Of a DNA stretch of 64,000 bases, positions 34,838-40,463 are shown piece by piece. The DNA is from Acidobacteriota bacterium (GTDB lineage Bacteria; Acidobacteriota; Terriglobia; UBA7540): positions 62,001 to 126,000 of the forward strand of contig JAKCCV010000008.1 of NCBI GenBank assembly GCA_021838785.1, in the 5' to 3' direction. Below the pieces are notes generated by a model, which saw only the letters and a list, made by a program, of their open reading frames with translations, did not search any database and was not told where the DNA came from. A program made the position numbers and the translations under genes. Every line of letters begins with the position of its first letter. Position 1 is the first letter of the stretch.

Positions 34838-35503
34838 ATGCGAACCGTTTTGAACTGGGTGATGGTCGTGGGCATAGGAGTTCTGATGTCGCCACCGCTG
34901 TGGGCACAGACTTCCTTGGCGCAGGCGCAATATCAATACACCATCCCCGAGGGAACCGAGTTTAAGCTGGTCCTCCATACCGAGATCAACTCGAAACGAT
35001 CTCGCAAGGGCGACGTGGTCATCTGCACGTTGCTTGATCCAGTCTATGTGGAGGATCGGTTGGTGTTGCCTCGAGGGATTCGCGTTTACGGACACATCAC
35101 GGAGATTCATCCGGCTCGCCGGCGCGGCAAAGGCGGCTTCGTTTATGTGGAGTTCGACTCCCTCGAGTTGCCGAGCGGCCAGAAAGTTGCCCTCATGGGC
35201 TCGCTCACCGAGGTTTTCTCGAGCGTGGGCAAGAGCGGCTCGAAGGTGGGCCCAGAAGGCAATCTGCGGGGCGGCTCGGCCAATCGCAAAGAGCAGCTCG
35301 CGTTATTTGCGGCACCGACGGCGGCAGGGGCCGTCGGGGGCGTGGGACCTGGAATCGCTGCGGCAGCGGGTGGGCTGGCGGCGGCGCTACTTCTCCCCCA
35401 CGGTAAGCAAGCCAAACTGTTGGCCGGCTCCCTGATTGGCATGCGCCTCGACCAAGATTTAACAATCACGCTTCCGCCTCCCAAGCACCCTCTGCGCTAC
35501 TGA
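34838..35503 (+). CDS. Secreted protein with predicted beta-rich domain
   Basis: A 221-residue protein with a Sec signal peptide (hydrophobic 7-20, cleavage probably after LWAQ). The mature region begins EGTEFKLVLHTEINSK, followed by strands (GDVVICTLLDPVYVEDRLVLPRG) reminiscent of TrbI/VirB10-like C-terminal barrels. A glycine-rich hydrophobic patch (GAVGGVGPGIAAAAGGLAAALLL) may insert in a membrane. Such proteins are common in Acidobacteriota, but I do not know a function. It is transcribed alone with a GGGGAG Shine-Dalgarno. Confidence 0.7.
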   Translation: MRTVLNWVMVVGIGVLMSPPLWAQTSLAQAQYQYTIPEGTEFKLVLHTEINSKRSRKGDVVICTLLDPVYVEDRLVLPRGIRVYGHITEIHPARRRGKGGFVYVEFDSLELPSGQKVALMGSLTEVFSSVGKSGSKVGPEGNLRGGSANRKEQLALFAAPTAAGAVGGVGPGIAAAAGGLAAALLLPHGKQAKLLAGSLIGMRLDQDLTITLPPPKHPLRY

Positions 35504-35597: not shown

Positions 35598-36761
35598 TTA
35601 TCGTTTCCGTTTACCGCCCGCAGCGGAATGGGGCGAAGCGCGGCGTCGCGCCATCGCGGGGCGGACGGGACGCGGAGGGTAAAGCCGCGAGGTTTCCGGC
35701 AAACGAAACAAGTAAGAAACGGGTACAAGCTGAACATCCGCCTCCGCCAAGCGGGGCAGAAATTCTTTGAGGGCCCGGATGGTCGTCGGGTGAGGGTGCC
35801 CGATGGCGATGGCGACCCCTTGGCGCTCAACAACCTTCTCAAGCTCCCGCAGTTGGCCGAGCGTATAAGGAACAGTTTGTCTGTCATCCAGGAACACAGA
35901 ACGAAAAGCGGCGGGCACTCCCGCCTTTCGTGCGGCTTCCCAAGCCACACTCGAACCGATGGTGCGGCTGTCCACAAAATAGAGATGGCGGCCGGCCAAC
36001 ACTCGCATAACGTCGGCCATCAGCACGGGATCCGACGTGGCGAGCGACCCTTGATGATTGTCCACGCCCCGGATATGAGGCACTGCTTCGAGGTCGGATT
36101 CCACCAGCCGTTCCACAACGCGCGCGCTCATGCCCACCCGGATTTCTTCCGGAGACCCTCGAATGCCCGGCCGAGGGATCGGCTGCATGGGCAAATGGAG
36201 CATCACTTCTCGTCCGGCGTGAAAGGCTATATCAGCCGTCTCGACCGAGTATCGCAAGCGAGGCAGGACTGAGAAGGTGAGCGAGTAAGGGAGGGCCACC
36301 AGTTCGCGCGCCGCCTGCTCATTGGCCCCCAGGTCATCAATGATAATGGCTACGCGCAGCAGGCGGGGAACCTCACGGACGCGCCACTCTGTTTCCCAAA
36401 GGCGGCCTTCCTTGATCCGAATCACGATCATCGGCTCACCCTGCGCCGGCCGGAGCAGCGAGGATTTCACCTGAAGACCACGATGAGCAGCCTCGTGCTC
36501 CAGGGCGCGCGAGACCGGCCTGACCGCAGACGGCTCCGCCAACACCTCAATCGGCCATGCACCCCTGCGAGGTGGGAATTCTCCTTCCGCCGACCCCTTG
36601 ACCCAGACCTCATTTCCCCCGGCTCGGAGCGCAGCCTCCCGCAGGAGCGCGAGCGCCGTTCTGCGGCTGATTCGAGCCTCGGAGCGTCGTATTTGCTGGG
36701 GGGGGCGGCATGAAGTCGCCAACAAGACCAGCGCAAGGACAACACCCGCCCTGCCCTTCAT
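35598..36761 (-). CDS. Divergent polysaccharide deacetylase, YibQ-like
   Basis: About 387 residues. The catalytic-like domain begins IIIDDLGANEQ and includes LHLPMQP, a NHQGS motif and VAIAIGHPHP, which are landmarks of the divergent polysaccharide deacetylase (YibQ) family. I chose the ATG at 36761, giving a signal or lipoprotein start (VLALVLLATSC); an earlier TTG at 36827 is possible but adds an unusual extension. It follows the S41-type gene by 69 bases, an order (ctpA then yibQ) that is common in Gram-negative bacteria near envC. It probably acts in the periplasm on peptidoglycan or another polysaccharide. The exact substrate is unknown. Confidence 0.82.
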   Translation of the reverse strand: MKGRAGVVLALVLLATSCRPPQQIRRSEARISRRTALALLREAALRAGGNEVWVKGSAEGEFPPRRGAWPIEVLAEPSAVRPVSRALEHEAAHRGLQVKSSLLRPAQGEPMIVIRIKEGRLWETEWRVREVPRLLRVAIIIDDLGANEQAARELVALPYSLTFSVLPRLRYSVETADIAFHAGREVMLHLPMQPIPRPGIRGSPEEIRVGMSARVVERLVESDLEAVPHIRGVDNHQGSLATSDPVLMADVMRVLAGRHLYFVDSRTIGSSVAWEAARKAGVPAAFRSVFLDDRQTVPYTLGQLRELEKVVERQGVAIAIGHPHPTTIRALKEFLPRLAEADVQLVPVSYLFRLPETSRLYPPRPVRPAMARRRASPHSAAGGKRKR

Positions 36762-36830
36762 GGCCAGAACGGTGGACGAGCGGTGCGACGGCCCACCCAC
36801 AGGTTGACATCGCGGCTCACGGGCCAAGAC

Positions 36831-38042
36831 TTAGGCGGCCTTTGCTGAAGGAGTCTTCTGGCTAAGAATCTCAAGCGCCTTTTGAAGCTGAAGGTCGTTT
36901 TTGCCCCCCATTTGAGTCGGTGAAAGGGGCTCTTGATATAAGGCAGCCTCGTGGCTTGTGGCCGGCTGAATAACGTTGGGAGTGACGCCGCGTCCTGCTA
37001 TCACCTGGCCGTCCGGCGTGTAGTACTTGGCCACGGAAAGCAGCAAGGCGGAGCCGTCACCCACGGGAATCAACTGCTGGTAAACGCCCACGCCAAAGGT
37101 GGGCTCGCCTACCACGTTGCCACGGTGGTTATCCAAAATCGCCGCGGCCACGATCTCTGCGGGTCCTGCGGTGGACATGTTCGTCAGTACCACCAAGGGC
37201 AGGTTGGTGATCTGCTTGGAGGGTTGAGCCATCACATCCCGCCGAGGGAAGCGCTGGCCGTAGAGATAGGTGATGAGGCCGTGGCCCAAAAAGAGGTTGG
37301 CGGTTTCCTCGCCTTCCTTCTCGCTTCCTCCCGCGCAATCTCGCAGGTCAAGCACAATTTGGTTGGCGCCTTGGGCGATGAGTTGTTTAAGGTCGGCGGC
37401 AATTTCTCGGGTTTTCCCCGGGCTGAAGGTAAGGACATGGAGATACGCCGTGTGACCGTTGATCATCTTGGCCTCGACGGGCGGCGGCGGGAGAATCTCT
37501 CGCGTCAGCGTCAGCTTCAGCGGAGCGCCACGGTTAGCGCGAATGATGGATAAATGCACCGGCGTTCCCGGAGGGCCGTCAAGAATCCGATCGAGCTGAA
37601 TGACGGAGAGTCCGTGCGTGGGGCGATCCTCTAGCGTGTCAAGCAGGTCGCCCGGCTCAACGCCAGCCTTCGCTGCCGGGCTTCCCGGTAGCACGGAAAC
37701 AATGGTGGTGTATCCCATTCGCTTGGAGAGATAAAGGCCAACCGTGCCCGGCCCGGGTTGGGGATGGGCAAGATATTCTTTATACTCCTTGGCCGTAAAG
37801 TAGGTGCTGTAGGGATCGAGCGCGGAGAGCAGACCGCGAATGGCGCCTCGCGTGACCTTCTTCAGATTGGGCTGCGTCACATATTCCTGCTGGATGCGGG
37901 ACAAGACCTCGCCATAAACGCCGAGGTCTCGGTAAGTTTGATCGTCCCTGGCTTGAGACTTGCTGAGAACCGCCCCCATGGCTGCGTAAAGTAGCAGCCC
38001 GCAGGAAATCGAAATCAGAATGAGACGCGCTCTTTTGGCCAT
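36831..38042 (-). CDS. S41-family protease homologue, predicted inactive
   Basis: A 403-residue CtpA/Prc relative: signal-anchor (LILISISCGLLLYAAMGAVL), N-terminal helices, PDZ domain (GSPAAKAGVEPGDLL) and an S41 core. At the catalytic Ser (E. coli Prc Ser452, three residues before the Glu of SASE) the sequence STAGPAE has Gly293. Exactly 25 residues later, the Lys of FGKG (Lys477) is Val318 in FGVG. Both dyad residues are therefore missing at correct spacing. The fold appears intact, so it probably binds proteins or regulates an active homologue. GGGGAG lies 5 bases before the ATG. A -10 TATAAT is at 38099-38094, and the 5' leader holds a GGTGGC/GCCACC hairpin. Confidence 0.88.
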   Translation of the reverse strand: MAKRARLILISISCGLLLYAAMGAVLSKSQARDDQTYRDLGVYGEVLSRIQQEYVTQPNLKKVTRGAIRGLLSALDPYSTYFTAKEYKEYLAHPQPGPGTVGLYLSKRMGYTTIVSVLPGSPAAKAGVEPGDLLDTLEDRPTHGLSVIQLDRILDGPPGTPVHLSIIRANRGAPLKLTLTREILPPPPVEAKMINGHTAYLHVLTFSPGKTREIAADLKQLIAQGANQIVLDLRDCAGGSEKEGEETANLFLGHGLITYLYGQRFPRRDVMAQPSKQITNLPLVVLTNMSTAGPAEIVAAAILDNHRGNVVGEPTFGVGVYQQLIPVGDGSALLLSVAKYYTPDGQVIAGRGVTPNVIQPATSHEAALYQEPLSPTQMGGKNDLQLQKALEILSQKTPSAKAA

Positions 38043-39016: not shown

Positions 39017-39280
39017 TCAGTCTTGGATGCGGATGCGTCGCATGCCGGGAGCCGGCCGCGGCTCCTTGCGCAGCCACTCGATGGTTTCGTCAAGCAGCGA
39101 GCGCATGGCTTCCAGCACTTCGATGCCGGCGTTCCGCAGATGCCGCGCCGAGGGTGGCAGCGGCCCGCGCGAGCGCGCCAACAGCGGCCGAAGCCCGCGC
39201 AGCAGGGAGCGCAGGCATTCCGCCGCCGCGTCTTCCGGCGCTTCACTTCGAGGTCGGGTTCTCCGTTTTGGATTCGGCAT
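39017..39280 (-). CDS. Small helical protein coupled to ArsA-like ATPase
   Basis: An 87-residue basic, helical protein starting at ATG 39280, with a very strong GGGGAGGAG Shine-Dalgarno. The start lies inside the 3' end of the ArsA-like gene (38-base overlap), so it is real and translationally coupled. Features are an Arg/Lys-rich N terminus, a central DAAAECLRSLLRGLRPLLA helix, then LRNAGIEVLEAMRSLLDETIEWL. I do not recognise the family. Tight coupling suggests that it works with the ATPase as cofactor or client. Confidence 0.7.
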   Translation of the reverse strand: MPNPKRRTRPRSEAPEDAAAECLRSLLRGLRPLLARSRGPLPPSARHLRNAGIEVLEAMRSLLDETIEWLRKEPRPAPGMRRIRIQD

Positions 39281-40463
39281 TGCTCCTCCCCATGATGACG
39301 ACCAGTTCACCATTGCGCACGCGGGCGCTCAGCGGCTCACAGCGCGCCACCCGCTGGGGCAGCGCGATGTGTCGCTTGTAGCCTCCCACGCGGATGACCA
39401 GCTCGTCAAGCTTCTTGTAAAGGTCCACCTGTTCGGCGCTCACAAACGGCAGACGCATCTCCAGGTGGTAATTCCCGTTGACCTTGCGAAAACGGTAGGG
39501 GGGCTGGTCAAAGAATTGCTTCGCCGGATCGCGCGACCCATAGAGTTCCTTGCCTAGCCGCTTCAGCCGCTCCGTGCCCAGGACCTCATCTTGGAATAAC
39601 GGCACGCGCCAAACGGGCACCGGCGCAAAGAATTCCTCGACAGCGCGAATCCACCGTTCCTGGGTTTCCTTCCAGGCGCTGAAAAATCCCCCCTCCATCC
39701 CCTCCGGCAAAATGCGATTGATGATCACCGCGTCCACGGTCAGCCCATAGAGACAAAAATAGGTGAAGGCCCGCTGAGTCTCTTTAAGAACCACTTTCTC
39801 CGGGTTCGTGACCAACCGCACGGTGGTGATTTTCGGATCGCCCAATACCTTATCAATCCCGCAGAGTTTGTGGTGCAAGTCCTCAAGATTGGCGAAGTAT
39901 TCTTCCTGCGGCAGCGGGAGGTTGGCAAACTTCTCGATCATCGGCCGCACCATGCGCGCCACGCGCCGTTCCAGCTTGAAGATTTTCGCCATATACCATT
40001 CGAGCGTGGTGGGAATGCTGACAAAGCGCAAGGATTCCCCGGTGGGGGCGCAATCCAGCAGGATCACGTCAAAGCTTTTCTCCCGCACGTATTGGTTGAC
40101 GTAAAGCAGCGAGCTGACTTCCTCCATGCCCGGGAAGACGGCCAACTCTTCCGCCAGCGTTTGTTCAAGCCCCGACACGTTCAACAGCGCCGAAACATAC
40201 GCATACACCGAATCCCAGTGGCGGCCAATCTCCTCCAGCACATCCACTTCCTGAATCCAGACGTTCTTCGCCACCTTGAGCGGTTGGCTAGTGGAGCGGT
40301 CCATCAAGTCTTGGCTCACGTCAAAGGCGTCTCCCAACGAGTGAGCCGGATCCACCGACATCACCAGCGTTCGATAGCCGCGCCGCCCGAGTTCCAGCCC
40401 CGTCGCGGCTGAAATGCTGGTCTTGCCGACTCCGCCCTTGCCCGTGTAGAGAATAATCCTCAA
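39243..40463 (-). CDS. ArsA/Get3-family ATPase with HSP20-like tail
   Basis: A 406-residue single-module P-loop ATPase. The deviant Walker A GKGGVGKTS and the switch VDPAHSLGDAFD are typical of ArsA/Get3. The C-terminal 90 residues (YHLEMRLPFVSAEQVDLYKK to NGELVVIMG) match an HSP20-like/ArsA C-terminal domain seen in many bacterial homologues. There is no second half and no arsD nearby, so arsenite pumping is unlikely; such proteins more probably bind hydrophobic clients. AGGAG lies just before the ATG. It precedes and overlaps the small helical gene. Confidence 0.88.
   Translation of the reverse strand: MRIILYTGKGGVGKTSISAATGLELGRRGYRTLVMSVDPAHSLGDAFDVSQDLMDRSTSQPLKVAKNVWIQEVDVLEEIGRHWDSVYAYVSALLNVSGLEQTLAEELAVFPGMEEVSSLLYVNQYVREKSFDVILLDCAPTGESLRFVSIPTTLEWYMAKIFKLERRVARMVRPMIEKFANLPLPQEEYFANLEDLHHKLCGIDKVLGDPKITTVRLVTNPEKVVLKETQRAFTYFCLYGLTVDAVIINRILPEGMEGGFFSAWKETQERWIRAVEEFFAPVPVWRVPLFQDEVLGTERLKRLGKELYGSRDPAKQFFDQPPYRFRKVNGNYHLEMRLPFVSAEQVDLYKKLDELVIRVGGYKRHIALPQRVARCEPLSARVRNGELVVIMGRSNAESKTENPTSK

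Follow-up and report, generated by a model that had tools for sequence, protein, structure and literature searches.

What does a protease gene do once its catalytic residues are gone? On the minus strand of the window (the whole 64,000-nucleotide stretch of DNA analysed, within a 3.42-Mb assembly), one gene encodes an S41/PDZ protein, here called pseudo-CtpA. The first-pass annotation had described it as a homologue that lost both catalytic residues and kept its PDZ domain, retained by selection rather than decaying, and possibly scaffolding or regulating cell-wall enzymes in the gene order ctpA-yibQ. The relevant features are listed below.

36831..38042, minus strand: pseudo-CtpA, an S41/PDZ protein of 403 aa without the catalytic Ser and Lys (translation, Pfam, PDB alignment, orthologues)
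37758..37937, minus strand: dimerisation-type region at the N-terminus, residues 36-95, one of the best conserved segments (family f1 has a mean pairwise identity of 0.76; putative role, assigned from P. aeruginosa CtpA by analogy)
37527..37742, minus strand: PDZ domain, about residues 101-172 (Pfam)
36972..37451, minus strand: S41 core domain, residues 198-357 (Pfam)
37335..37337, minus strand: codon of Cys236, within the CAGG that stands in place of the NPGG motif (Cys in 31/31 family rows and 83/160 clade rows)
37164..37166, minus strand: codon of Gly293, which stands where the catalytic Ser would be (located from CDS coordinates; alignments)
37089..37091, minus strand: codon of Val318, which stands where the catalytic Lys would be (located from CDS coordinates; alignments)
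37077..37079, minus strand: codon of Gln322, the retained third residue of the triad (alignment; Gln in 130/160 clade rows)
35598..36827, minus strand: YibQ/SddA-type divergent polysaccharide deacetylase (Pfam PF04748, 1.4e-70; 2nly match; gene order)

The pseudo-CtpA reading frame runs from its start at 38042 to its end at 36831. It is open as far as 38141, and the orthologue alignments begin at the same Met (38042). Pfam Peptidase_S41 (PF03572) matched the core at 4.2e-37 over profile positions 2-163 of 165, and PDZ_6 matched residues 114-168 at 1.9e-11, ahead of the core, in line with the earlier statement that the PDZ domain was kept. A whole-length core match preceded by a PDZ domain places the protein in the S41 family by homology; against the prc subfamily model of NCBIfam (TIGR00225) it scored 216.0 bits, just below the curated cut-off of 218.6, and it is not assigned to that subfamily. 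A hydrophobic segment can be read at the N-terminus, and pseudo-CtpA is a predicted membrane-anchored PDZ and S41 protein. Judged from the profile match, the S41 fold appears to be retained; an AlphaFold model of the window protein (seven-row alignment, pLDDT 57.7) was of too low quality to reveal either the fold or the groove. Conservation within the family peaks at residues 41-80 (0.81-0.85) and 281-340 (0.74-0.83), with 0.60 in the PDZ domain and 0.31-0.54 in the tail from residue 361 onward.

The catalytic positions were located by three comparisons. In the accessible text of PMC12749690, a triple mutant of H. pylori CtpA is given as S300A/K325A/Q329A; it is recognisable in chain 9ku3, which has Ala where chain 9ku0 has Ser, Lys and Gln, and these columns aligned without gaps to Gly293, Val318 and Gln322. 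The spacings of 25 and 29 residues in the window protein equal those of the P. aeruginosa CtpA triad, Ser302-Lys327-Gln331 (PMC8764530, excerpt). In the active paralogue L001 from the same genome, S and K face Gly293 and Val318 within a stretch aligned without gaps. All three lines agree that the Ser and Lys found 25 residues apart in active S41 peptidases are lost from the window gene by alignment, as the first-pass annotation had proposed, and that the Gln is kept. Base-calling error is unlikely because two relatives in the same genus (G001, G003) carry the same Gly and Val, as does a 97%-identical fragment (G002, L041), and sequencing error was therefore rejected as the cause of the dyad loss.

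A match at E <= 1e-58 was found in 144 of the 151 genomes of the class. Among 178 related Acidobacteriota loci with 55 family codes (clade loci with YibQ-centred loci added; the dead protein was the query for most of them, a bias on which the YibQ-centred set described below is a check), 165 lacked the Ser+Lys pair, 11 had it and two were unreadable by alignment. Dead loci covered 51 of the 55 family codes, and the 11 Ser+Lys loci were confined to families f8 and f36. Partial dyads were also seen, with Ser but no Lys in 10 dead rows and Lys but no Ser in three. These counts leave out duplicates (L003, L036-L041) and 14 loci outside the clade (active paralogues, Ser/Thr paralogues, L004, L042 and L164).

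The window family had Gly at the Ser position in 31/31 clade rows, and Lys in none; L054, which is coded as this family but groups with f6 (Gly/Thr), is excluded from the 31. Over the 160-row clade, the Ser position held Gly in 132 rows, Ser in 20, Asn in 3, Asp in 2, Gln in 2 and Lys in 1. At the Lys position, Lys was present in 13 rows, V in 37, D in 21 and E in 14, with 14 further types (18 in all), and both catalytic residues occurred together in 11/160 rows. The orthologues thus share non-catalytic residues and, as described below, are under purifying selection, which is the pattern of a pseudo-enzyme clade. The 11 Ser+Lys relatives are not active orthologues bearing the Gly and Val of the window gene. 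A scan of viral contigs for further relatives found none.

Two other groups of S41 genes were seen. In the window family, L169, L170, L171 and L172 form a second paralogue lineage in which 4/4 rows keep Ser, with Lys replaced by Thr and Gln by Leu, likely reflecting a separate loss of activity. The f8 orthologues L048, L055, L069, L072 and L102 keep Ser, Lys and Gln and have a CAG/CGG motif like that of the dead rows, not NPGG; whether they are active is uncertain.

Trees were built without the three triad columns. The dead genes and their relatives formed one clade, with an SH-aLRT of 100 in a 173-row quick tree and bootstrap/SH-aLRT values of 100/100 in a 61-row tree and 100/99 in a 48-row tree. 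Both Ser+Lys paralogues of the window genome (L001 and L002) fell outside it. In the 61-row tree, f8 came out as sister to the other class rows (joint clade 97/92), and f36 was nested beside dead rows; long branches make the deep branching order unsure. At least three changes between the dead and Ser+Lys states were needed on this tree, and one change sufficed in 0% of 200 bootstrap trees, so a single loss of the dyad was rejected. The 48-row tree, which includes the separate L169/L170 lineage, had four state changes. The dyad was therefore lost more than once or regained: the history is either several losses, or one loss and two regains.

Selection was estimated as dN/dS by the Nei-Gojobori method. 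The values are rough, with members shared between pairs and dS near or above 1 in several. Among 17 pairs of dead genes, 16 gave 0.021-0.164 and one (L173/L174, family f4) gave 0.385. Two Ser+Lys pairs gave similar values (0.074 and 0.114), and one further pair was saturated. With 165 of 178 loci dead and such low ratios in 16 of the 17 dead pairs, the earlier claim of a selected pseudo-protease is borne out; a real, ancient and selected pseudo-protease is well supported.

The YibQ frame as listed begins 3 bases past the pseudo-CtpA stop codon. YibQ (PF04748) was found in 49 of the 151 class genomes, and in 48 of these an S41 gene lay directly upstream, with coordinates compared by eye and one of the 48 (G019) split over a contig end; in the remaining genome (G029), YibQ lies at the edge of its contig, which allows no judgement. 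Outside the class, 46 genomes had YibQ and 28 loci were inspected. An S41 gene was directly upstream in 26 of them, of which 23 were dead, two had Ser+Lys (L147 and L159) and one was unread. The YibQ-centred loci, picked blind to the S41 gene, had an S41 frame directly upstream in 18 of 20 cases; 17 of the 18 were dead, one was unaligned at the site, and none had Ser+Lys.

In deeper lineages, EnvC was also part of this order. An EnvC-like gene lay directly upstream of the S41 gene at 31 of the 178 loci (25 families), and the full EnvC-S41-YibQ triple occurred at 20 loci in 15 families; E. coli EnvC itself reaches 197 bits against the EnvC profile used. No EnvC was found beside pseudo-CtpA within the available flanks of the window family, including those of the window gene, which therefore has YibQ directly downstream and no EnvC directly upstream. 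Moreover, of the 144 class genomes in which an S41 match was found, 97 had no YibQ hit at E <= 1e-10. A scaffold for YibQ only cannot therefore be the whole function, and YibQ as the only partner was rejected. The ctpA-yibQ link named in the first-pass annotation is thus real and ancient, with EnvC belonging to it, while a purely YibQ-directed role did not hold.

The neighbours of the S41 gene are mostly cell-wall genes. A PBP1A-type gene lay near it in 19 loci, 18 of them in f10, and MltG/YceG and RuvX lay near it in other families (one representative each of the PBP1A-type and MltG/YceG clusters was named by Pfam); an ABC-F type ATPase and threonyl-tRNA synthetase were present in some families. 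Several side observations were made. At L196 and L198, YibQ directly follows EnvC and the intervening S41 gene is absent, which is also the E. coli arrangement. The M23 domains of EnvC-like genes (e.g. L155:5924-7081 and L142:5200-6399) look degenerate when their metal-binding motifs are judged by eye in printed rows against the M23 motif, which would put two dead peptidase relatives adjacent in one operon. In the window, Pfam identified an ArsA/Get3-type ATPase with an ArsA_HSP20 domain at 39243-40463, upstream on the same strand as pseudo-CtpA, and gave a weak TrbI/VirB10-like hit in a small protein at 34838-35503.

Across the phylum, the dyad is lost within one clade of genes that are under purifying selection and hold an operon position. 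Gene company and selection suggest that pseudo-CtpA probably has a binding or regulatory role and not a proteolytic one. More specifically, we give an even chance to the view that the window gene represents the ctpA of an ancestral envC-ctpA-yibQ division operon and that, in nearly all the Acidobacteriota sampled, this CtpA lost its proteolytic residues and was kept to scaffold or regulate the remodelling of the septal wall. P. aeruginosa CtpA forms its dimer by way of the N-terminal helices (PMC8764530, excerpt). Membrane-anchored pseudo-CtpA would still dimerise through its conserved N-terminal helices, and its PDZ domain and emptied substrate groove would hold a partner. Candidate partners are the SddA deacetylase, EnvC, another septal peptidoglycan enzyme or the C-terminal tail of one of these, which pseudo-CtpA would place or restrain at the septum without cutting it.

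The dyad loss, the clade support, the low dN/dS, the EnvC/YibQ order, the MltG/YceG and PBP1A-type neighbours and the conserved segments 41-80 and 281-340 all count for this scaffold or regulator. Counting against it are the 97/144 genomes without YibQ, the lack of EnvC beside the window-family gene, the dyad intact in 11/178 loci and the poor AlphaFold model. A more tentative extension, which we consider possible but somewhat doubtful, is an Acidobacteriota-wide switch of the operon from regulated proteolysis to non-proteolytic assembly. Here, a degenerate M23 EnvC, a dead CtpA hub binding SddA or amidase-pathway partners, and the deacetylase would together time the opening of septal peptidoglycan.

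The main rival is that pseudo-CtpA regulates the active CTPs of its genome, forming mixed oligomers through the N-terminal dimer region and restraining them or delivering substrate. The genome does have two Ser+Lys S41 paralogues (L001 and L002), the N-terminal region is highly conserved, and H. pylori CtpA is described, in the excerpt of PMC12749690, as an N-terminal dimer with one subunit active at a time. However, BLAST aligned pseudo-CtpA with L001 only from residue 66, leaving the first dimer helix dissimilar, and both paralogues lie on other contigs, so that we regard mixed oligomers as unlikely.

Somewhat less likely still is that the main job of the protein is to bind wall peptides, a lipid or a small ligand, as does the mammalian interphotoreceptor retinoid-binding protein with its S41-like fold. 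That protein is an animal retinoid carrier with S41-like repeats and no known peptidase role, and its solved chains 9frx and 4lur match pseudo-CtpA weakly by sequence. It is not known to have a PDZ domain or an operon parallel, and the neighbours of pseudo-CtpA are wall genes.

Whether the protein might still be an enzyme that uses other residues, such as Cys236, Thr291 or Lys339, was judged from residue conservation. No conserved replacement Ser/Lys pair was found among the core residues in the family or the 160 clade rows. The invariant polar core residues of the 31 family rows include these three and Ser331, and the former active-site region is conserved in the family (0.76), both of which would suit another chemistry; no His was among the invariant residues. 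Cys236, however, also accompanies intact Ser+Lys in all five f8 rows printed, and for this reason it was set aside as a substitute nucleophile. Lys339 is present in half of the Ser+Lys rows, and Thr291 is seen in rows of active type, L001 among them. In the NPGG motif, Gly238, which we take to have an oxyanion role, is kept in 20/20 Ser+Lys rows versus 38% of dead rows. This residue pattern argues against a replaced catalytic site, and we consider it very improbable. Functionless decay is the least credible reading and was rejected, being contradicted by the selection estimate and by the wide retention of the gene in the class, even though the Lys position varies freely, the L173/L174 ratio is raised, and four class matches contain one in-frame stop in the matched stretch (yet the open frames used run 413-446 aa).

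The preferred reading thus remains a dead CtpA kept as a scaffold or regulator at the septum. Our search of the open-access literature found no published description of an Acidobacteriota pseudo-CtpA, and the occurrence of a phylum-wide dead CtpA within a known division operon is new as far as that literature reaches. Such genes are likely annotated as S41 family peptidases, because the protein passes the Pfam S41 cut-off, although cutting is probably impossible. Retention of a dead CtpA in a division operon across a phylum offers a natural test of which CtpA functions can do without proteolysis. It also suggests candidate partners for SddA, a septal deacetylase described only recently; according to the accessible part of PMC12440217, its partners at the septum still need to be identified.

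Among known systems, P. aeruginosa has the operon envC-ctpA-PA5135, in which PA5135 is the yibQ/sddA orthologue (PMC12569750, excerpt). Its CtpA resembles pseudo-CtpA in combining S41 and PDZ domains with an N-terminal dimer region (putative in pseudo-CtpA), with EnvC before it and the YibQ/SddA orthologue after it (PMC8764530 and PMC12569750, excerpts). Unlike pseudo-CtpA, with its Gly, Val and Gln, it is an active protease with an intact triad and the partner LbcA. The outside-phylum control was small, consisting of P. aeruginosa and three rhizobial records (L207, L209 and L210). The latter likewise have the S41 gene before YibQ: L209 and L210 are annotated with the full EnvC-S41-YibQ order, and in L207 an S41 profile match lies upstream of the YibQ match. 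They differ from the window gene in keeping Ser, Lys, Gln and NPGG in 3/3. A Sulfurovum region fetched for comparison gave no S41 hit in a profile search.

In E. coli, SddA (YibQ) deacetylates denuded septal glycan strands and was modelled with EnvC and FtsX, and the deacetylase gene is directly linked to envC and has a septal role, as is proposed here (PMC12440217, excerpt). By annotation, E. coli has no ctpA between envC and yibQ, unlike the envC-ctpA-yibQ order. A further parallel is offered by CspC and CspA of C. difficile, which have a subtilisin fold. Although they act in spore germination and belong to a family unrelated to S41, they are dead proteases that have been kept for a regulatory task (listed under PMC12880746).
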